DNA of 64,000 nucleotides from Nitrospira sp. (GTDB lineage Bacteria; Nitrospirota; Nitrospiria; Nitrospirales; Nitrospiraceae), in contig CP092081.1 in NCBI GenBank assembly GCA_022226935.1, positions 2,938,181 to 3,002,180 of the forward strand. Direction: 5' to 3'. Under the pieces are notes generated by a model that was not told the origin of the DNA, ran no database searches, and saw nothing but the letters and a program-made list of their open reading frames with translations. The number at the start of each line of letters is the position of its first letter. The stretch's first letter is position 1. The translations under genes and the position numbers were made by a program. This document shows positions 29,058 through 39,024 of this stretch, in pieces.

Positions 29058-29092
29058 ACCGGCGTCGAATGCAGGCTTCGAGTGGGGATACT

Positions 29093-29464
29093 ATGCCTGG
29101 TGGGAATAAGCAGCTCGCACCATCGGTCCCACATCGTCTTCCTGCTGCCGGTGTCCGATTCCGCGTGCGATCCTTTCGTCGTTTTCCTGTCCAATGTTCG
29201 GTCTATTATTCCTGCGATGCCTTCCAGGGAAGCGGTATTGCCTGGAATCTCTCCCTCAACGGGTGGCGTGTCGATGGGACACATCCGGTGGACCCCGGAA
29301 CGATCGTTACCCTCTGCATCTTTCTTCCCGGTCAGCACCCGACCGTGTTTGTCGACCGCGCGATAGTTCGCTGGTCCCGAGGCCAGGAATTCGGCATTGA
29401 AGTGAATGCGATCAAAGCCGATGAGCGGGCCCGCCTCGAACAGTTCGTGACGGCGTTAGTCTAA
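29093..29464 (+). CDS. PilZ-domain protein 1 of 3
   Basis: A 123-residue protein with a single PilZ domain. The c-di-GMP-contacting signatures are both present: Arg-x3-Arg in RSFRRFPVQC and Asn-x-Ser-x2-Gly in NLSLNGWRV. A start inside the tRNA is excluded; the ATG at 29093 is used, with a GTGGGGA upstream. It lies 35 bases after the tRNA-His gene and may be read from the tRNA promoter. Two further PilZ genes follow in the same direction. The family binds cyclic di-GMP; which pathway it feeds is unknown. Confidence 0.82.
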   Translation: MPGGNKQLAPSVPHRLPAAGVRFRVRSFRRFPVQCSVYYSCDAFQGSGIAWNLSLNGWRVDGTHPVDPGTIVTLCIFLPGQHPTVFVDRAIVRWSRGQEFGIEVNAIKADERARLEQFVTALV

Positions 29465-29619
29465 GTCCTATCTCCTCTTCAGGGTCTCGATCAGTATGTA
29501 GCAATGGGATGCGTTCGCCCTGTTGAGAACGAAAATCTGCTTGGTCATTTTCAGCGAGTTCAGTAGACTGATCTCTAGTCAGGCTGATGCCGTGTGACGC
29601 TTATTTCCTCGCTTATACC

Positions 29620-29964
29620 ATGGCCAAATCACAAACCTCCCGGTCACATTCTCGCGTGCCTGTCAGCTGCTTCCTCTATTATTTGGGGGAGGGACTGGTC
29701 GGAACCGGCAAAGTGTGCGATCTCTCCGTCAGGGGCTGGCGGATCGAAGGTGATAAACCCGTCACGGTCGGCATGAAATTGACGTTGCGCGTCTTTTTGC
29801 CTGATCAGCCGAAGGCGATCGACGTGGAAGGCGTCACCGTGAAGTGGGTGAAGGACCGCGTATTCGGGCTGGAAACCCTCAAGCTGAGCGCCGCCGCTGA
29901 AGCGCGCATTCACACATTTGTCGAACGCGTGCTGAAATCAGCCGATTCCTCGCGCGTGGCTTAG
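29620..29964 (+). CDS. PilZ-domain protein 2 of 3
   Basis: A 114-residue single-domain PilZ protein. Motifs: RSHSRVPVSC (Arg-x3-Arg) and DLSVRGWRIEG (Asp-x-Ser-x2-Gly). Its overall pattern (GWRI..., LRVFLPDQPKAIDVEGVTVK, FGLE) parallels protein 1, so the two are paralogues. The start is uncertain, as 29587 is in frame 11 codons upstream and no SD is obvious for either. A second messenger reader, probably of c-di-GMP. Confidence 0.82.
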   Translation: MAKSQTSRSHSRVPVSCFLYYLGEGLVGTGKVCDLSVRGWRIEGDKPVTVGMKLTLRVFLPDQPKAIDVEGVTVKWVKDRVFGLETLKLSAAAEARIHTFVERVLKSADSSRVA

Positions 29965-30152
29965 TCAATCGATTGTTGCCCTGTCGTCAGGCTTCGCGGT
30001 CTAGTCTGGATTGAAGATTTCGCAGGTCGCGCTCCCAGATTCCCACACTCGCAACCCTTTGAATCCCGTATTCCGTTGATCCCCCACTTTCGGGGACTAT
30101 CCCGCAATCTGTTGTTTTTCATATTCTGCCGAGGCGTTTGGCTGGAGGCATG

Positions 30153-30518
30153 ATGGAACAACAGAATCGTCCGCGGTTTATCGTCGAATGTACCGGATCA
30201 CGTTCAGAGGATGGGTTGCTGGTCTGGAACGGCCGGATGCTCGATCTCTCCATTCCAGGATGGTCGCGAACCGGACTCAAAGGACTGCAAGCCGGGGACC
30301 TCCTTCAATTGCATCTGCATATTCCGGGAGAGCCCAAGCCTCTCTCAGTACGTTTGGCGACGATACGTTGGGCAAGTGAGTCGCGGCTCGGGGTGGATCC
30401 CATACTCATGGATGCCGACGATCAGCTGCGATTGAGCGATTTCGTCAGTGCGCACGCCACGATGCCATCGTATAGTACGGATCGAAAAGAACAGATCGTC
30501 ATTTCTGATGCCGGGTAA
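30153..30518 (+). CDS. PilZ-like protein 3 of 3 (first Arg motif changed)
   Basis: A 121-residue protein aligned with the two upstream PilZ proteins by LDLSIPGWSRTG (Asp-x-Ser-x2-Gly kept) and RLATIRWASESRLGVDP. The N-terminal Arg-x3-Arg is not seen: the region reads NRPRFIVEC, so binding of c-di-GMP may be weakened or lost. GGAGG stands before two stacked ATGs and the second (30153) has the better spacing. Its C-terminus has 20 extra residues. Likely paralogue that has diverged in role. Confidence 0.75.
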   Translation: MEQQNRPRFIVECTGSRSEDGLLVWNGRMLDLSIPGWSRTGLKGLQAGDLLQLHLHIPGEPKPLSVRLATIRWASESRLGVDPILMDADDQLRLSDFVSAHATMPSYSTDRKEQIVISDAG

Positions 30519-30808: not shown

Positions 30809-32110
30809 ATGACCCCTGGTCCCCAGCTTCCTGACGCGACCCATACGACCCCGCTGACGCCTGAAACCGAGGCGCAAGTCGACCAATTCGCCCATACGGA
30901 TATTTTGGTCGGTATTCCCAGCTTCAACAATGTAGAAACGATCGGCCACGTCGTCAAAGCGGTCAGCGCCGGCCTGGCCAAATATTTCCCGGAAGCCCGT
31001 GCCGTCCTGGTGAATTCGGATGGCGGTTCGACGGACGGGACGCAGCAGGTGGTGTCACAGGCGGTCGTCGATCTCAAAACGCTCTTTATCGGCGACCAGC
31101 AGAGCTCGCTCCATAAAATCATTACGCCCTATCACGGTATCCCCGGAAAAGGCAGCGCATTTCGCACGATTTTTGAGATTGCCCGTCGCCTGAAAGCCAA
31201 AGCCTGTGCCGTGGTGGATTCGGATTTGCGGAGCATCACGCCAGAATGGATCGAACTCCTGGTCAGCCCAGTGTTCGAGCAGGGGTTCGACTATGTCGCG
31301 CCCTACTATCTCCGCCACAAATATGACGGGACCATCACGAACAGCATTGTGTATCCGCTGACACGTACCCTTTATGGTCATCGGATCAGGCAGCCGATCG
31401 GCGGGGATTTCGGATTTTCCGGACAATTGGCGCAGCATTACCTGGACAAGCATGTGTGGGAGTCGGAAGTTGCGAAGTTCGGCATCGATATCTGGATGAC
31501 GACGGAAGCGATCGCCAGCGGAGCGCGGGTCTGCCAGAGTTTTCTCGGTGCCAAAATCCACAACCCCAAAGACCCGGCGGCTGATCTTTCGGCTATGCTG
31601 GTGCAGGTGCTCGGTGCGGTATTCGCGCTGATGGAAGATCATTATGCGGTGTGGGGCAAAACAGATGGTTCGAACGCGGTGCCGTTGTTCGGATTCCAGT
31701 ACGAAGTGGGGGTGGAGCCGGTCAACGTCAACGTCGATCGTATGATCAGCACCTTTCGGCAAGGCCTGAGCGATCTGGGCACGATTTGGGATCAGATCCT
31801 TGCTCCGGGAACCAGGCAGAGTCTGCGACCGCTGGGAACCTGTTCGCTGCAGGAGTTTCGGATTGCCGATAGCCTGTGGGCGCGGGTCGTCTATGACGCG
31901 GCGGTTGCCTATCGGAATCGTGTCTTGCCCCTCGATCATGTGTTGAAAGCCTTCACGCCTTTGTATTTGGGCCGCACCGCGTCCTTCGTGCTGGATACGC
32001 AGGGGCTCACATCAAGCGAAGCCGAAGGCCGCATAGAAGCGCTCTGCCAGGCGTTTGAAAAGGATAAGTCCTACTTGGTGGCGCGCTGGAACGAACCGCA
32101 TGTCAGTTGA
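30809..32110 (+). CDS. GT81-like glycosyltransferase (glucosyl-3-phosphoglycerate synthase-like)
   Basis: A 433-residue GT-A fold enzyme. Sugar-nucleotide site: ILVGIPSFNNVETIG, NSDGGSTDGT; PGKGSAFRTIFEIA; DSD metal motif in AVVDSDLRSITPEW; and the signature YDGTITNSIVYPLTR followed by IGGDFGFSG, all as I recall from GpgS-type enzymes of Persephonella and archaea. It would transfer glucose (or mannose) to 3-phosphoglycerate. A HAD phosphatase of the MPGP type lies 1.9 kb on, so together they would make glucosylglycerate or a relative, an osmoprotectant. Donor not proven. Confidence 0.8.
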   Translation: MTPGPQLPDATHTTPLTPETEAQVDQFAHTDILVGIPSFNNVETIGHVVKAVSAGLAKYFPEARAVLVNSDGGSTDGTQQVVSQAVVDLKTLFIGDQQSSLHKIITPYHGIPGKGSAFRTIFEIARRLKAKACAVVDSDLRSITPEWIELLVSPVFEQGFDYVAPYYLRHKYDGTITNSIVYPLTRTLYGHRIRQPIGGDFGFSGQLAQHYLDKHVWESEVAKFGIDIWMTTEAIASGARVCQSFLGAKIHNPKDPAADLSAMLVQVLGAVFALMEDHYAVWGKTDGSNAVPLFGFQYEVGVEPVNVNVDRMISTFRQGLSDLGTIWDQILAPGTRQSLRPLGTCSLQEFRIADSLWARVVYDAAVAYRNRVLPLDHVLKAFTPLYLGRTASFVLDTQGLTSSEAEGRIEALCQAFEKDKSYLVARWNEPHVS

Positions 32111-32167
32111 GAGTGATGAATCCATCCATCTGAAGGCAGGCTGCAGTCGGGGCCGGAGGAGGGAAGT

Positions 32168-32875
32168 ATGAAGGAATTCTTTGAAAAGGGGCTCCTCGAT
32201 CCTCTGGAGCTGATGGCGCGGCAGGTGCTCGCGGTATTGCCGAGCCTCCTGGCCATGTCCATCATTTTCTTTGCGGGACTGGTGGTCGCATGGACGGCCA
32301 GCCAGGCGCTCGAGCGGCTGCTACGAGTGGTCGGGTTGGATCGGCTGTTTGATCGTCTGGGCGTCACCGGCGCGTTGTTGCGGGGCGGGGTCAAAACGGA
32401 TCCGTCTCGATTGGTGGGGCAAGCGGCCTATTGGTTGGTCATGATTTTCGCCACCGTCGCCGCATTGGGCGCGTTGAATCTTCAACCCATCAACGATTTC
32501 GCCAAGTCATTTTTGGCCTATGTTCCGCATTTGGTCACGGCAGGGCTCATTTTGGTGGCGGGCTGGTTGTTGTCCAACTTTGTCTCGCAGGCGGTGCTGA
32601 TCGCCGCGGTCAATGCGGGATTGCCTCCTGCTCGGTTAGTGGCGACCTGCTCTCGATGGGGGATTCAATTGTTGGCGGTGGCCATGGCGCTGGAGCAGCT
32701 CGGTATTGCGCAAAATATCGTGGTCGTCGGCTTCGGGATTACCCTGGGAGGGATCGTCATGGCTGGGGCGATCGCCTTCGGGTTGGGCGCGAAAGATTTG
32801 GCGAAAGATTATCTCGAGCGCGGGTTGTCGGTCCGAACGCGAGATGGCGCACCGGATGACTTACGGCATCTCTAA
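32168..32875 (+). CDS. Small membrane channel-like protein (conserved TM-helix family)
   Basis: A 235-residue protein with about four long hydrophobic helices and repeats resembling the conserved TM-helix family that forms the core of small mechanosensitive-like channels: VLPSLLAMSIIFFAGLVVAW, PHLVTAGLILVAGWLLSNFV, and the Gly-rich helix with GFGITLGGIVMAGAIAFGLG. It lacks the C-terminal MscS beta domain. GGAGGAGGGAAG before the ATG is a strong SD. Position between the osmolyte synthase and phosphatase genes suggests a role in releasing osmolyte on downshock, an inference. Confidence 0.78.
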   Translation: MKEFFEKGLLDPLELMARQVLAVLPSLLAMSIIFFAGLVVAWTASQALERLLRVVGLDRLFDRLGVTGALLRGGVKTDPSRLVGQAAYWLVMIFATVAALGALNLQPINDFAKSFLAYVPHLVTAGLILVAGWLLSNFVSQAVLIAAVNAGLPPARLVATCSRWGIQLLAVAMALEQLGIAQNIVVVGFGITLGGIVMAGAIAFGLGAKDLAKDYLERGLSVRTRDGAPDDLRHL

Positions 32876-32916
32876 CGACTGAACGGTCTTGGCTGGTCAC
32901 TGATAAAGGACAGGGT

Positions 32917-33138
32917 ATGACGAATAAGATTTCGGACATCGACGGTGAGGCCAAGGCGCGCCGCTGGTTGGGTGGGGAAGCAGCCGTGCCGCGCTATCCC
33001 CACCGCCGCCCAAGCCGGTTTGTGTTCAATCGTTCGCTGCTTGGACTGGTCGCCTGCGCCATTGGGGCGGGATTTGCGGGAGGGCTGGTGGTCGGCCTGT
33101 TGAGCCGGCGAACCAATCCGTCTCAGCGCGGGCATTGA
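32917..33138 (+). CDS. Small single-pass membrane protein
   Basis: A 73-residue protein, basic N-terminal half with a single hydrophobic helix FNRSLLGLVACAIGAGFAGG and a short basic tail. AAGGACAGGG is at a normal SD distance and it follows the channel gene by 41 bases on the same strand. No family recognised. Small size lowers confidence that it is translated, but the SD, the clear helix and the positional coupling favour it. Confidence 0.55.
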   Translation: MTNKISDIDGEAKARRWLGGEAAVPRYPHRRPSRFVFNRSLLGLVACAIGAGFAGGLVVGLLSRRTNPSQRGH

Positions 33139-33182
33139 TGCGCCGCTCAAACTCTTAAGTGGAAATGTCGTAAGCTCGATCG

Positions 33183-34007
33183 TCAGAGAGTCGGCAGGAG
33201 ATCAAGCAGGCTGCGATTCCATCCAACCGGTCCCACTCCATCGGCACGGATCAGACGGGAGAGCTGCACGTCCGGGTCGTAGGAGCCGTTCGGTTTCTGG
33301 ATAAGAATAGGGTAATCCACGACTTTCAGCATGGGCAGATCATTGAGGCTGTCTCCAAGGCCGACCGTCACGAGACTCTGCCCCTCCTGTTGTACGAGCC
33401 GTCTATACCATTCAATTAGCCGCCGGCTCGCGATTCCCTTATCATTTGCCCCCATCAAATGATAGAACCGGCCTCCTCGCGTACAGGTGAGACCGCGTCT
33501 GTTCGCCGCTGCAAGTAGATCCTGCCACGCTACGACCTGGCCATCCATCACGAAGGGCTCATCATACTCCCGCTGCATGGCCAACTGTGCCTCTCCGGCC
33601 GGCATTCCGGTTAACTGCACCACTTCTGCTAGGGTCAGATCCCCGAATCCCCGCAATCTCCAACCCATTTCTTGACGAATCGCCTTCAGCGCCGCTCGAA
33701 GTGTGGCATAGGGAATTCCAAGCTGGAACACTTGATAGGCATCGCGGGATAGTGATCCCTCAAGGGGAAAGGGAAACGTGCCGTTAGGGATATAGATCGC
33801 TCCGCCGTTTTCGACAATAAACGGATGGTGATTGCCCAGACAGCCGCGAAGCGGCTCCATTTCTGCACGGGTCTTGCTGGAGACGAGGATGAGGGGCGCG
33901 CCACGATGCGCGATGGCGGCCAAGGCATCGGAGGCGTGCTCGTATGAGTAGGTGGTGGTGTCGAGCAAGCTCCCGTCCAAATCAGAAAAAATGAGGATGC
34001 GCCGCAT
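33183..34007 (-). CDS. HAD-IIB phosphatase, mannosyl/glucosyl-3-phosphoglycerate phosphatase-like
   Basis: A 274-residue HAD enzyme with motif I FSDLDGSLLDTTTYSY, a Cof-type cap, the family signature REYDEPFV, and motif IV GLGDSLNDLPML. These are marks of the mannosyl-3-phosphoglycerate phosphatase branch. The start at 34007 (MRRILIF) is preferred; the frame extends 39 codons beyond without support. Converging on the synthase/channel block, it would remove phosphate from the sugar-phosphoglycerate made by the GT81-like enzyme. Sugar specificity not told from sequence. Confidence 0.85.
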   Translation of the reverse strand: MRRILIFSDLDGSLLDTTTYSYEHASDALAAIAHRGAPLILVSSKTRAEMEPLRGCLGNHHPFIVENGGAIYIPNGTFPFPLEGSLSRDAYQVFQLGIPYATLRAALKAIRQEMGWRLRGFGDLTLAEVVQLTGMPAGEAQLAMQREYDEPFVMDGQVVAWQDLLAAANRRGLTCTRGGRFYHLMGANDKGIASRRLIEWYRRLVQQEGQSLVTVGLGDSLNDLPMLKVVDYPILIQKPNGSYDPDVQLSRLIRADGVGPVGWNRSLLDLLPTL

Positions 34008-34245: not shown

Positions 34246-37200
34246 GTGCGATCCGATAAAAAACCTCCGCTGAAGTCCGATAAAAAAGTTCCTCCCAAGG
34301 TCCAGAAAAAGGGCAGCCTCGGCTACAACAAAAAGTCGGCGCTGCTCGAGGACGCGATTACGCAAATGAACGCCGGCAAGTACGGCCGTGCGTCCTCCGC
34401 CCTCAAAGACCTGCTCGCGCTCGACCCTCTCAACGCTGAAGCCAGGCGTCTCTTTGCCACCCTCCATCTGCGGCTCGGAAGCCTCATGAGCGCCAGGACG
34501 GCGTTCGAATCACTGGCTCGGGAAGCCATGGAACGGCAGGATTATTGGCTGGCGGAGTCGCTGCTGCGGGAATATCTCACCGCAGGGCCACGCTATGTGC
34601 CTTTCTTGGAAATGCTGGGACGCGTCTACGAGGAAAAAGGCGACGTCATGGCGGCGGTGGCGGAGTACGGCAAAGCGGTTGAAGTCTTGCTGGAGGACCC
34701 GGACTCGGAGAAACCAAATCACCCCAGTGAGCTTTTCGCGCGGATTCGCTCTATTGCGCCCGGGAGTCCGGTCGCGTTCCGCCTTGCCGCGATGTTCGAC
34801 ACGGTGACCGGGCAAGTGCTGCAGGTCGCGCCTCAGCCTGCGGTTCCTGCCCAGGAACACGAATCTCCTCAGGCTGCAGCGGCGGAGGCTCCTGCCGATG
34901 GTGTCGCGCCTATGCCCTGGGAACAGATGGAGCCTCTGCAGGCCGATGTGCCTGTCGCTCAAGCCCCGTCCAGTCCATTGGAAGAACCGCCGACAACGAC
35001 GGTCGTCGAGCCGGCTATGTCTTCGGCGTTGCCCGTCGAGGCTGTAGCGGCGGGTGGACCACAGAAGCCCGAGGTCGATCAAAGTCCTGTGCCCGAAACA
35101 TCGGAACTGCATCCACCACTGATACCGGCGGAGCCTGATGCTCTTTCCGTGCCCCTGGTTGGCTCCTCCGAAGAGCCGATGAAGGCCGCAGCTGAAAGCG
35201 AACTGCCGGCTATGAATCCGCTTCCCGCTTTGACCAATGAGGCGGAAGTAGCTCCTGCCCCGGTCTCTCTGGAGTCTCCGCCGGCGAACGTCGCGTTGGT
35301 CGAGGGCGGTGCTGATCCAATTGCGCATGCCCCTTCGAGCCCGGCACCGATGCCGTGGGACCAGGTTGAAGAAATTGCCGTCGTCATTCCTCCAGCATCT
35401 GCAAGTCAGGAATCGACGGGTTCAGACGTGGTGCCCCCGGTTTCCCCTGAACCTGAAGTGGGACCGAGCGTCAACGTCGAATCCGTGCTTCCTTCCATGG
35501 AACCGCTGGCAGAGACCGGCAACCAGACCCTTGCTCCTCCGCCCTCGACGCCTACTCCTATGCCTTGGGTTCAGGTTGAAGAGGAGGTCATCGCGATACC
35601 GCCGGCTGCGAGTCAGGTGTCGGCTATGCCTGAATCTTCGACGGCGCCGACCTCTGAAACCGAAGGGCCATCGGTTCCTACCAGTGATCCCGCTCTTCAG
35701 GCCATCGAAGTGTTGTCGCAATCAGGCAGTCACCCGATCGTCGCCACACCGACGACTCCGGTGTCCATGCCCTGGGATCAGGTCGAAGAGAACCCCATTC
35801 TCATTCCTCCGGCGGCAGCGCCCTCCGCATCCAGCGTAGAGGAGGTTGCGCCTGAATCATGTGAAGAAAAGCCGTTGCCACCAGCCATCGAGGCAGTGAG
35901 CTCCGGGGTAGAAGTTCCCTCGCGGCAGGCAGAGGCTCCAGCGGCACCACCATCCGCTTCCAGTGCTTCAGAAATGACTTCATCCGGCCTGTCCTGGGAC
36001 GAAATTCTCGCAGCGGTCGCGGCTATGCAATCCACTCCTGCGCCGGTGCAGTCGCTTCCAAGCGCGGAGCCGGCCCAGGCGCCAGATCGCACCGTGCCGG
36101 AGGAGCCGGTTCCTGCAGTCACGGCGATTTCGGATGCTGTCGAGACGACAACGGTCTTCTCAGATGCCCCCTCGCCCGAACCCTCCTTGGATCCGGGCAG
36201 CGCCTCCTCGACGTTGTCTGCCCCCATGCCCTGGGAACAGGTCGAAGTCGAAGACGTCACTATTCCACGCCAAGAACCGGAACCGGAATTTGGTTCAGCT
36301 CCCCTCGCAGGCGAAGCAATCGGGAATTCCGGCGGGATGACATTGGATTCCACCCTCGTTTTGCCTGCGTCACCGGAAACGCCGGAGCCAGCGACCCAAG
36401 TGGAATCGCCGATTGTCGCCGCTGAACCTTCGGCGGGCAGCGGCGAAGAATCGGGGCAGGGGTTCCGTCTTCTCCAGTCGAACGAGCAGGAGCCGCACAA
36501 TAATTCACTTGACCACCCGGCGGAATCACCTGAGGCGACTCTTGCGGAGAAGTCCCCCACGCTATCCGAACCTGAGCCGTCTATAGGTCTCCCGAAGGAA
36601 GAATCAGCCGCCGTTCCCTTGCGTCTGGTCGAAAGCGAAAGCATTCCCGCGCAAGCCGCGGGTGAACCCGCTTCTGTCAAAGCGGAGCCGATCACGGAAT
36701 TCACTCTCGCCGAAATGCACGTTGAATCGATTGAGAAGGATTCAGAGCCGCTACCTCAAGTGGAGCACTCGCTGGAGTTGATCGATGCGCCGGAAGCGAT
36801 GACGCCTTCAGAGCCTGCACCGGTAGACGAGATCGTCGCCGCGCCTGTCTCATCATCTTCCGTCGAAGATCAAACGATTTCCGTCGCTGAACCAATTGCT
36901 CTCGAGGCGCAGGACGATCAGCCGGCTGAGCCTTCGCCCCTGGAAAGTGAGCCCGCACCGGTCCTTTCGCTGGAGCCGGCCGCGAAGTCTGACGAGCAGG
37001 CGGTTGTTGAATCTCTGGCGAGTGACGCCGACGTGTCGCTTCCCGAGTTGACTGATGTGCAAACTGCTCCAGTTGAAGAATCCCTGCCGGTGTCTCCGCC
37101 AGGGCTGTCCGCCGTAGTTCCGACGGACGAGTCGAGGGAGATTGTTCAGGACCCTCAGGCTTTTGAGCCTGTACAGTCAGACCAGCCTGTGGACATGGCT

Positions 37201-39024
37201 CCCTCCGAGGACTCCGCTCTGGAAGCAGAGGTGCCTGAATCGGCTGCATCCGCTCCAGCCGACGTCCCTGCGAGTGATGGATTACATATTCTTTGGGAGG
37301 ATGCCTCGTCAGCACCGACCCCGAAACCTTCTACCGGAAACATGCTGACTCGCTGGCTCAAAAAGCCTGCGGAACCTGTTGCCCCTGAAGTCAGCGCCGT
37401 TCCTCCAACGACTCCCGTTTCGGCTGAGCCTGTCGCGCCGCTCGCCTCACAGGCCGTGGAGGAATCAGTTCCTGCGGTAGTCGTGACGGAACTGCCGTAT
37501 GAACCCATCGAGCAGGCTCCGGCGGCGGTTGCAGAAGAGCCACCACATCGTCCCGCACGTATCCAACCTGCGGGGCCCGGCCTCTGGAACCGAATGGGTG
37601 AGGCAGCAGTTTCTTTGGTCGGTGCGGGGGTATCGACGACGCGATCACTCGTGGTCCTGATTCTGGCATTGGTCGGCCTCGTCCTGTTTGCAGTTGGGGG
37701 GACCATCGCTGCGGTGGTCCTGACGTGGCTGATACTCGAGGAGCAACCGAATGCAGCCTATCGCACGATGACGTCGGTGCCGCAACAGACTTTGCAAGAC
37801 TCCAGTAAAAATGGCTATCTCCTCTTACTCGGTCTCGCAGCTTCCGCAAGTCAGGATCCCGTGCAGGTTGGAATGGATCGACGGGTTGAAGGTGCCGACC
37901 GGGCATTCACGCATACCTGCCTGACCGGAGAAGGGTATTCGCCTGATGGAGGGCTCAGTGCCTCGGCCGACGCGGCGGGTAAGTGGATGAAGGCTGCCGA
38001 TCCGGCGTTGCAGATGCAGATGGATGTAAGCAGTGCCAAAACGTGGCTGTCGCAGGCCGAAGTCAGCCTGGGCCGCTACCGCCAATGGTTGAACAAGCCG
38101 TTTGAAGATGTGGGATACGGCCAGTCGATCAGTCCGAACTGCGGGCTCATTCTTCAGACGCATCGGCTGTACCTTGCCGACGGATTTGCGCAGGATCTGG
38201 ACACGGGATTCGGGCGGCTGGAAACCGATCTTACGGCCTGGCGGACGGTCTTGGGACAGGCGAAATCATTGCCGGTGAAAATGTTGGCCAGTGCAGCGAT
38301 GAACGACGACGCGATGATCATGGGCGGGCTCTTGCAGCGGCCGGATCTCGATGAACGATATGTCAGCCGAATGGCGAAATTGGCGAAGCCGTTAGAGCCA
38401 TCTGAACAATCGCTCCGTTGGCCGATGCAGAGCCAGTTTGTGTTGGCCACCAAGACGCTGGATGACGCGGTCAGCCAGAATCGGGCCGACACGCGTCCGT
38501 TCTATGGCGCCATCGCGGCAGCGTTGCCGTTGCCGAAGCAACGCCGGTTCAATGCCTACGCCGAATATTATGAGGCCGCCGGAAAAGCGACGGCCGACGG
38601 GCGGTATGCCGACCTGCCGAAGCTCTCCCAGTTTGTGCGTGTGGCTCCGTACAGCGTGAGCGACATGGTGATGAATCCGATCGAAGGTTTGGTCGGGGTG
38701 GACCCCATGCCCACATGGGAAATCTACGCGGGTCGGGTTCTGGAAACCGATGCGCGGTTGCGGTTGGTCTCGCTGCAGGCCTGGTTACGCCGGACGCCGC
38801 CGGAGCAGGACCTGCTGACGCGGTTAGCCAAGGCCGGCCAGGGGCTCTACGATCCCTTTACCGGGTTGCCCATGCTGGTCAATATGAAAAAAGGCATGCT
38901 CTACAGTGTCGGACTGGACCTCAAAGACAATGAAGCGCACGAGCGCCTTGATCTCGTGGCTCAGATCCCGTCTGTTGCCTGGGCCGGCGGAAAAAAATCG
39001 GCCGATGCAGGCAAATCCAAGTAG
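34246..39024 (+). CDS. 1592-residue TPR / disordered / single-pass membrane protein
   Basis: Starts at a GTG. Residues 1-30 are Lys-rich. About 30-190 read as TPR-like helical repeats (AITQMNAGKYGRASSALKDL, EARRLFATLHLRLGSL). About 195-1120 is a Pro/Glu/Ala/Ser-rich, probably disordered linker with a recurring PMPW[ED]QVE-like motif (residues 222, 368, 438, 507, 660; degenerate forms at 581 and 1015). A single hydrophobic helix (about 1135-1160) follows, then a soluble C-terminal domain of about 430 residues with NGYLLLLGLAA and DPVQVG. No signal peptide, so TPR inside and C-domain outside is most likely. The layout recalls FimV/HubP-type pole organisers, but I know no exact family. Confidence 0.85.
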   Translation: MRSDKKPPLKSDKKVPPKVQKKGSLGYNKKSALLEDAITQMNAGKYGRASSALKDLLALDPLNAEARRLFATLHLRLGSLMSARTAFESLAREAMERQDYWLAESLLREYLTAGPRYVPFLEMLGRVYEEKGDVMAAVAEYGKAVEVLLEDPDSEKPNHPSELFARIRSIAPGSPVAFRLAAMFDTVTGQVLQVAPQPAVPAQEHESPQAAAAEAPADGVAPMPWEQMEPLQADVPVAQAPSSPLEEPPTTTVVEPAMSSALPVEAVAAGGPQKPEVDQSPVPETSELHPPLIPAEPDALSVPLVGSSEEPMKAAAESELPAMNPLPALTNEAEVAPAPVSLESPPANVALVEGGADPIAHAPSSPAPMPWDQVEEIAVVIPPASASQESTGSDVVPPVSPEPEVGPSVNVESVLPSMEPLAETGNQTLAPPPSTPTPMPWVQVEEEVIAIPPAASQVSAMPESSTAPTSETEGPSVPTSDPALQAIEVLSQSGSHPIVATPTTPVSMPWDQVEENPILIPPAAAPSASSVEEVAPESCEEKPLPPAIEAVSSGVEVPSRQAEAPAAPPSASSASEMTSSGLSWDEILAAVAAMQSTPAPVQSLPSAEPAQAPDRTVPEEPVPAVTAISDAVETTTVFSDAPSPEPSLDPGSASSTLSAPMPWEQVEVEDVTIPRQEPEPEFGSAPLAGEAIGNSGGMTLDSTLVLPASPETPEPATQVESPIVAAEPSAGSGEESGQGFRLLQSNEQEPHNNSLDHPAESPEATLAEKSPTLSEPEPSIGLPKEESAAVPLRLVESESIPAQAAGEPASVKAEPITEFTLAEMHVESIEKDSEPLPQVEHSLELIDAPEAMTPSEPAPVDEIVAAPVSSSSVEDQTISVAEPIALEAQDDQPAEPSPLESEPAPVLSLEPAAKSDEQAVVESLASDADVSLPELTDVQTAPVEESLPVSPPGLSAVVPTDESREIVQDPQAFEPVQSDQPVDMAPSEDSALEAEVPESAASAPADVPASDGLHILWEDASSAPTPKPSTGNMLTRWLKKPAEPVAPEVSAVPPTTPVSAEPVAPLASQAVEESVPAVVVTELPYEPIEQAPAAVAEEPPHRPARIQPAGPGLWNRMGEAAVSLVGAGVSTTRSLVVLILALVGLVLFAVGGTIAAVVLTWLILEEQPNAAYRTMTSVPQQTLQDSSKNGYLLLLGLAASASQDPVQVGMDRRVEGADRAFTHTCLTGEGYSPDGGLSASADAAGKWMKAADPALQMQMDVSSAKTWLSQAEVSLGRYRQWLNKPFEDVGYGQSISPNCGLILQTHRLYLADGFAQDLDTGFGRLETDLTAWRTVLGQAKSLPVKMLASAAMNDDAMIMGGLLQRPDLDERYVSRMAKLAKPLEPSEQSLRWPMQSQFVLATKTLDDAVSQNRADTRPFYGAIAAALPLPKQRRFNAYAEYYEAAGKATADGRYADLPKLSQFVRVAPYSVSDMVMNPIEGLVGVDPMPTWEIYAGRVLETDARLRLVSLQAWLRRTPPEQDLLTRLAKAGQGLYDPFTGLPMLVNMKKGMLYSVGLDLKDNEAHERLDLVAQIPSVAWAGGKKSADAGKSK
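34909..37296 (+). repeat. Recurrent MPW[ED]QVE motif in the disordered linker
   Basis: Cores of the motif start at 34909 (PMPWEQMEP), 35347 (PMPWDQVEE), 35557 (PMPWVQVEEE), 35764 (SMPWDQVEE), 36223 (PMPWEQVEVE), with relatives at 35986 (GLSWDEIL) and 37288 (ILWEDA). Spacing in the central part is about 70-79 residues, so the linker probably grew by repeat duplication. It may be a docking motif used several times. Confidence 0.7.

Follow-up and report, generated by a model that had tools for sequence, protein, structure and literature searches.

A putative glycosylglycerate gene module in Nitrospira that may join an MgS-type glycosyltransferase to an MscS-like membrane protein

Why should a glycosyltransferase of apparent solute metabolism be encoded directly beside a channel-like membrane protein? 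The question is raised by a locus of Nitrospira sp. within a stretch of 64,000 nucleotides (the window, G000:C1:2938181-3002180) of a single-contig genome of 4.23 Mb (G000). A preliminary description of this DNA had placed here a four-gene block consisting of a synthase, a channel-like protein, a tiny membrane protein and a convergent phosphatase. All four open reading frames (ORFs) are present, and their coordinates in the window are as follows:

30809-32110, plus strand: GT_B, 433 amino acids (aa), predicted retaining glycosyltransferase of the MgS type (PF00535 Glycos_transf_2, 26.3 bits, cut-off 23.3)
31739..32098, plus strand: residues 311-430 of GT_B, its C-terminal helical domain, proposed as a candidate docking surface from its conservation pattern
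32168-32875, plus strand: TM, 235 aa, MscS-like membrane protein in which no MscS cytoplasmic domain was found (PF05552, NF033912)
32480..32845, plus strand: part of TM (residues 105-226) that resembles TM1-TM3 of MscS in structure comparison
32917-33138, plus strand: small ORF (S20), 73 aa, with one hydrophobic stretch (by eye), found only in the genus of the window
33183-34007, minus strand: HAD phosphatase, 274 aa, mannosyl-3-phosphoglycerate phosphatase (MPGP) family, convergent to the other genes

The answer favoured here is that these genes form a glycosylglycerate module in which GT_B works in complex with TM, and TM would couple membrane tension to the synthesis or the release of the solute. 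This reading is held tentatively, as plausible but somewhat short of probable.

Fold, active site and pathway of the glycosyltransferase

The predicted structure of GT_B (pLDDT 84.1, pTM 0.85) matches the chains of MgS from Rhodothermus marinus (PDB 2bo4 and 2y4k), which we take to be a GT78 enzyme, with Z of 33.2-33.4 over 357-362 residues (33.4 over 360 for 2bo4), while GpgS chains are matched with Z of ~19 over ~225 residues. Similarly, a profile of 19 GT_B relatives searched against the PDB gave 5e-8 for MgS and 4e-4 for GpgS. GT_B was also considered as the GpgS of the pathway and rejected, and with this the earlier naming of the synthase as GpgS-like falls: PRK13915 gives 50 bits against a cut-off of 262, GpgS_Meth has no match to the window transferase at E <= 0.1, and the GpgS-like enzyme is a separate gene.

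According to PMC2581804, the residues D134-K114-E232 of MtGpgS correspond to D100-K76-D192 of MgS, the metal residues D136 and H258 of GpgS correspond to D102 and H217 of MgS, the glycerate carboxylate site is V186/T187 in GpgS and I138/T139 in MgS, and the active-site loop reads PLSGE in GpgS and PLGGE in MgS. The equivalents in GT_B are D137-K114-D227, the metal residues D139 and H251, the glycerate site I176/T177 and the loop QPIGG[DE]. K114, D139, D227, H251, I176 and T177 occur in 166/166 GT_B relatives and D137 in 165/166; the six residues K114, D137, D139, T177, D227 and H251 are jointly intact in 165 of the 166, L186 carrying His at position 137. With these residues intact, GT_B is expected to be a catalytically active retaining transferase that uses an acceptor of the glycerate type, and the glycine that its loop has in common with MgS makes mannose a possible donor. 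GT_B thus shares with MgS the fold over 360 residues, the catalytic Lys/Asp/Asp set, the metal Asp and His, the Ile-Thr glycerate site and the PxGG[DE] loop, which place it in an MgS-type (GT78-like) group, whose transfer of mannose or glucose to D-glycerate GT_B may share. Unlike MgS, to which it is 18% identical in the structure alignment, GT_B has a membrane protein as its partner and is accompanied by GpgS-like and phosphatase genes, and its activity is a prediction. No GT_B relative was found in the viral contigs searched.

The membrane partner beside this GT-A enzyme also allows a different chemistry, in which a lipid carrier would receive the sugar from GT_B and the product would be flipped or exported by TM, and ArnC and GtrB structures are indeed among the lower-ranked fold matches of GT_B. 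However, these matches have Z of 16-17, far below the 33 of MgS, the glycerate-carboxylate residues are invariant, and GT_B clusters with GpgS-like, MPGP-type and glycerate kinase genes, all of which make lipid-linked transfer very improbable.

The assignment of the phosphatase to the MPGP type stands: it scores 241.6 bits with TIGR01486 (cut-off 164.75), matches MPGP in the PDB at 4e-38, and no other phosphatase of this kind was found in the genome at E <= 0.001. It stays under the cut-off of the MPGP equivalog TIGR02461 (227.8 vs 244.35 bits), so mannosyl specificity is not supported. Many GT_B loci hold a second, GpgS-like transferase, GT_A. The family scan was made on the GT_A copy of locus L043, whose match to GpgS_Meth is full-length (E 4e-106) but with 355 bits does not reach the equivalog cut-off of 700. 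G000 has one relative, 77% identical to that copy, at G000:C1:554051-555271, adjoining a gene that by eye resembles a glycogen debranching enzyme. At 1810138-1811436, G000 also encodes a glycerate 2-kinase relative with 46% identity. Relatives often show the gene order GT_A-GT_B-TM-HAD, and the clusters around the GT_B-TM pair also contain glycerate kinase genes alongside GT_A and HAD. A HAD-glycerate kinase fusion occurs at 6 of 80 named loci (L158, L165, L175, L180, L192 and L200, with the fusion domains scanned for L158); these 80 are the top-ranking loci among 578 confirmed matches. Across a phylum sample of 395 genomes, GT_B is present in 204, GT_A in 196, HAD in 201 and all three in 185; among the 204 GT_B genomes, 190 have GT_A and 192 have HAD. 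This co-occurrence and clustering link GT_B to glycosylglycerate metabolism.

The module resembles the GpgS-GpgP pathway in that the window encodes an MPGP-family phosphatase and a GpgS-like gene is present both elsewhere in G000 and at many of the related clusters, but it differs in that the window transferase is a second enzyme of the MgS type, the GpgS-like gene of G000 lying elsewhere. The mannosylglucosylglycerate pathway that Petrotoga reportedly possesses (MggA/MggB) would explain a second transferase and one phosphatase near a GpgS-like gene; this likeness serves as a lead only. In marine Synechococcus WH8102, the unnamed gene SYNW2435 is numbered between the predicted GpgS SYNW2436 and GpgP SYNW2434 (PMC2874817).

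The membrane protein and its pairing with the transferase

TM exceeds the cut-offs of PF05552 (59.1 bits, cut-off 22) and of NF033912 'msc' (107.8 bits, cut-off 100). Its model (pLDDT 84.6, pTM 0.60) is all-helical, contains five long helices and ends at residue 235; the MscS beta domain and cytoplasmic cage are absent from this model, and no Pfam MscS-domain match was found at E <= 0.1. Residues 105-226 align with residues 15-136 of MscS (6vyk) at Z 10.2 over 120 residues and 3.9 Å, and the nine best rows of a second structure comparison are all MscS (Z 10.7 to 9.2), followed by an unrelated structure at 7.3. Each of the MscS matches is weak by itself; added to those of PF05552 and NF033912, they speak for an MscS-like membrane module that lacks the cytoplasmic domain. 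TM resembles MscS in its families and its TM1-TM3 arrangement, but unlike MscS and CmpX it is strictly paired with a glycosyltransferase, and no MscS cytoplasmic domain was found in it. CmpX is presumably a PF05552 protein, and its likeness to TM would lie in this family membership. A role as a membrane sensor has been proposed for CmpX (PMC10965496).

The same features raise the possibility that TM is simply an efflux valve, which would let the osmolyte out on osmotic downshift without any control of the enzyme. The two family matches, the MscS-like arrangement of TM1-TM3 and the constant position of TM in the same operon all agree with such a valve, but the missing cytoplasmic domain does not, and on balance with the relatives described below a release channel alone is rather unlikely. 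Release on osmotic downshift was the role first suggested for the channel-like protein; a purely releasing channel is possible but not favoured, TM having only an MscS-like membrane part.

TM follows GT_B on the same strand as the first labelled gene at 60/60 Nitrospirota loci, which were hand-picked from the listed matches to spread over genera, and likewise at 79/80 of the named loci, from several phyla. The exception is L202 (Aminicenantes), where TM is found upstream of GT_B and separated from it by GT_A and HAD. The named loci span Zixibacteria, Acidobacteria, KSB1, Gallionellales, Deltaproteobacteria, Rhodoferax and Aminicenantes, and at most loci the intergenic gaps between GT_B and TM are short or the genes overlap. 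Adjacency here means that no other labelled gene lies between, so that 722 bases separate the pair at L033 and 298 at L162; TM is split into two parts at L062 and L180, and at L155, L176 and L178 it is truncated by the end of the contig. At the same loci GT_A is found in 41/60 and 47/80 and HAD in 27/60 and 45/80; because these genes are far less constant, general synteny is no explanation for the pair. Co-occurrence in the phylum sample gives the same picture: with TM called at 1e-60, 197 genomes have both genes, seven GT_B only, three TM only and 188 neither, and with TM called at 1e-12, which admits other PF05552-type proteins, the counts are 199, 5, 24 and 167. The sampled genomes are related to each other, and Fisher values overstate their independence. 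The GT_B-TM neighbourhood is far beyond chance, and the proposal of a glycosylglycerate-type module that includes a channel-like protein in one unit is upheld by this deeply conserved pairing. No description of the pair was found in the open-licence papers searched.

A tight pair of genes need not mean a pair of touching proteins. GT_B and TM might respond to the same osmotic stress from a shared operon without contact, and the short gaps and overlaps are what any tight operon would have, while contact itself is inferred. However, HAD and GT_A, which belong to the same pathway, are shuffled, lost or inverted at these loci and TM is not, and for this reason, together with the degenerate pair described next, co-regulation alone is considered an unlikely explanation.

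Degenerate relatives and a clade without the membrane protein

G000 contains a second transferase-membrane protein pair, GT2 and TM2, in the following cluster:

L003:3296-14673 (G000:C1:415295-426672): trehalose/GlgE cluster with DUF5752, TreS-type, TreT, GT2, TM2, GlgE, maltokinase and GlgB-type genes (the GlgB and TreS assignments were made by eye or from alpha-amylase domains)

GT2, at 421750-422964, is 40% identical to GT_B. It is present in 12/29 genomes of the genus and in 13/26 genomes outside it, the latter being of our own choice; TreT lies beside GT2 at 25/25 loci and GlgE at 20/25 within the flank covered. The degenerate set comprises 23 of these 25 TreT-linked loci, L096 (internal stop) and L217 (which keeps the DAD motif and the His) being omitted. 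None of the 23 sequences keeps all six active-site residues: D139 is replaced by Q, N, G or S in 23/23, K114 by R in 22 and by G in one, and H251 is lost in 21/23, while D227 is kept in 23/23. The GT2 sequences form one clade (SH-aLRT 99) whose sister is L217. Their median ratio of nonsynonymous to synonymous substitution rates (dN/dS) is 0.117 over 55 pairs from 11 chosen sequences, which indicates purifying selection, looser than on the active GT_B; several TM2 ORFs in the dN/dS set start with a stretch overlapping GT2 in another frame. Three more transferases with an altered DxD motif lie beside TM outside the GT2 clade (L222, L223 and L221), of which the first two adjoin trehalose-type genes and L221 has a flank without such genes.

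Because GT2 is degenerate and yet under purifying selection beside a TM protein, the transferase body next to TM seems to perform a job other than catalysis. Positions conserved in GT_B were compared between 96 sequences of GT_B and 22 of the degenerate type, filtered to below 90% identity. GT2 keeps 12/50 of these positions in residues 28-140, 23/69 in 141-260 and 7/18 in 261-310, or 42/137 over residues 28-310, against 18/24 in residues 311-430, which makes the C-terminal helical domain a candidate interface with TM. A release channel leaves unexplained why a catalytically degenerate transferase is kept beside TM. Under co-regulation alone the degenerate transferase would have taken another enzymatic or binding role, but the pair stayed together in the trehalose cluster despite the degeneration.

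Seven GT_B genomes lack TM at 1e-60 (G304, G253, G337, G327, G367, G375 and G383). In G304 (L229) the contig ends within the transferase, G253 (L224) has a lone degenerate transferase near GlgB, and G337 is a weak match (L242), which together with L243 was left out of the analysis. The remaining four genomes, G327, G367, G375 and G383 (L225-L228), keep the active-site motifs and have no TM beside the transferase. Instead, a response-regulator receiver adjoins it in 4/4, and a histidine kinase, whose N-terminal segments look hydrophobic by eye, lies upstream in 3/4, the fourth contig ending at the start of the transferase. These four form one clade (support 100) on a long branch among the TM-paired enzymes, and the clade again places the transferase beside a sensor. 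A release channel does not account for a histidine kinase and receiver in the place of TM. The degenerate pair and this clade tilt the interpretation toward sensing or regulation over a pure release channel; synthesis plus release is one of two live versions.

Possible mechanism, neighbouring genes and meaning

According to the favoured reading, GT_A, encoded elsewhere in the genome, would make glucosyl-3-phosphoglycerate, from which the HAD phosphatase of the window would strip the phosphate, and GT_B would add a sugar to glycerate or to glucosyl(phospho)glycerate. GT_B would act in complex with TM, docking through its C-terminal helical domain, and TM may sense membrane tension and couple it by controlling GT_B, by opening for solute release, or by both.

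Several points weigh against this reading. The complex and the chemistry of GT_B and TM rest on sequence and models, and conservation of the operon can arise from co-regulation alone. The Z of ~10 between TM and MscS is modest, since under ~13 helical models may match by chance; Foldseek gave E 1.1 with probability 0.99 for TM against 6vyk and no match to the TM model at E <= 0.001, and the best E of the TM profile against the PDB was 0.36, all ten matches up to E 1 being MscS. In addition, GT_B conserves just 24/120 positions of its C-terminal domain, whose retention in GT2 may reflect a structural core. The best-match choice of the named loci under-samples distant relatives, and TM is not indispensable, as four genomes with an intact active site have none beside the transferase.

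Within the genus, the pair changes slowly. Against five relatives, TM is 98-100% and GT_B 95-99% identical, HAD 66-84%, and in a set of 12 neighbouring proteins GT_B and TM are among those conserved best; median dN/dS is 0.020 for GT_B and 0.015 for TM (11 chosen sequences per set). The closest named loci, with 99% transferase identity, are metagenome-assembled genomes of Nitrospira. The 73-aa ORF S20 matched no family above cut-off in Pfam and NCBIfam scans, and among the loci compared its homologues occur only in the same genus, with 93-99% identity in the three records that contain it; its median dN/dS of 0.17 (11 sequences) indicates a real coding gene. Promoter and terminator scans were not clearly above shuffles (3 found vs a mean of 1.9, and 2 vs 3.2, respectively).

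Directly upstream of GT_B, three PilZ-type proteins are encoded in tandem (window 29072-30518, plus strand); two exceed the Pfam cut-off and the third is slightly under it (20.2 vs 22.5 bits), and the trio is retained in the named genus relatives. On the other side, positions 34246-39024 (plus strand) encode a 1592-aa protein with tetratricopeptide repeats at its N-terminus and a long proline-rich middle, which evolves fast (39-73% identity in partial alignments with five relatives).

A bolder form of the idea is an osmosensing enzyme complex in which the transferase body would replace the cytoplasmic cage of MscS and membrane tension would act directly as the switch for making or releasing the solute. 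In trehalose/GlgE clusters this scaffold would have been put to a second use as a regulatory pseudo-transferase that no longer catalyses, whereas one clade would have connected the enzyme to a two-component system instead. Taken as a whole, this picture is doubtful. If true, such a complex would be of a kind without description in the open-licence literature searched. To our knowledge, how the synthesis of compatible solutes is matched to turgor is largely unresolved for solutes made by enzymes. The near-invariant transferase-TM pair is carried by Nitrospira, acidobacteria, deltaproteobacteria, iron oxidisers and others, and together with its apparently non-catalytic copy in the trehalose cluster it offers a defined two-gene system in which a direct coupling of membrane tension to solute metabolism could be tested.

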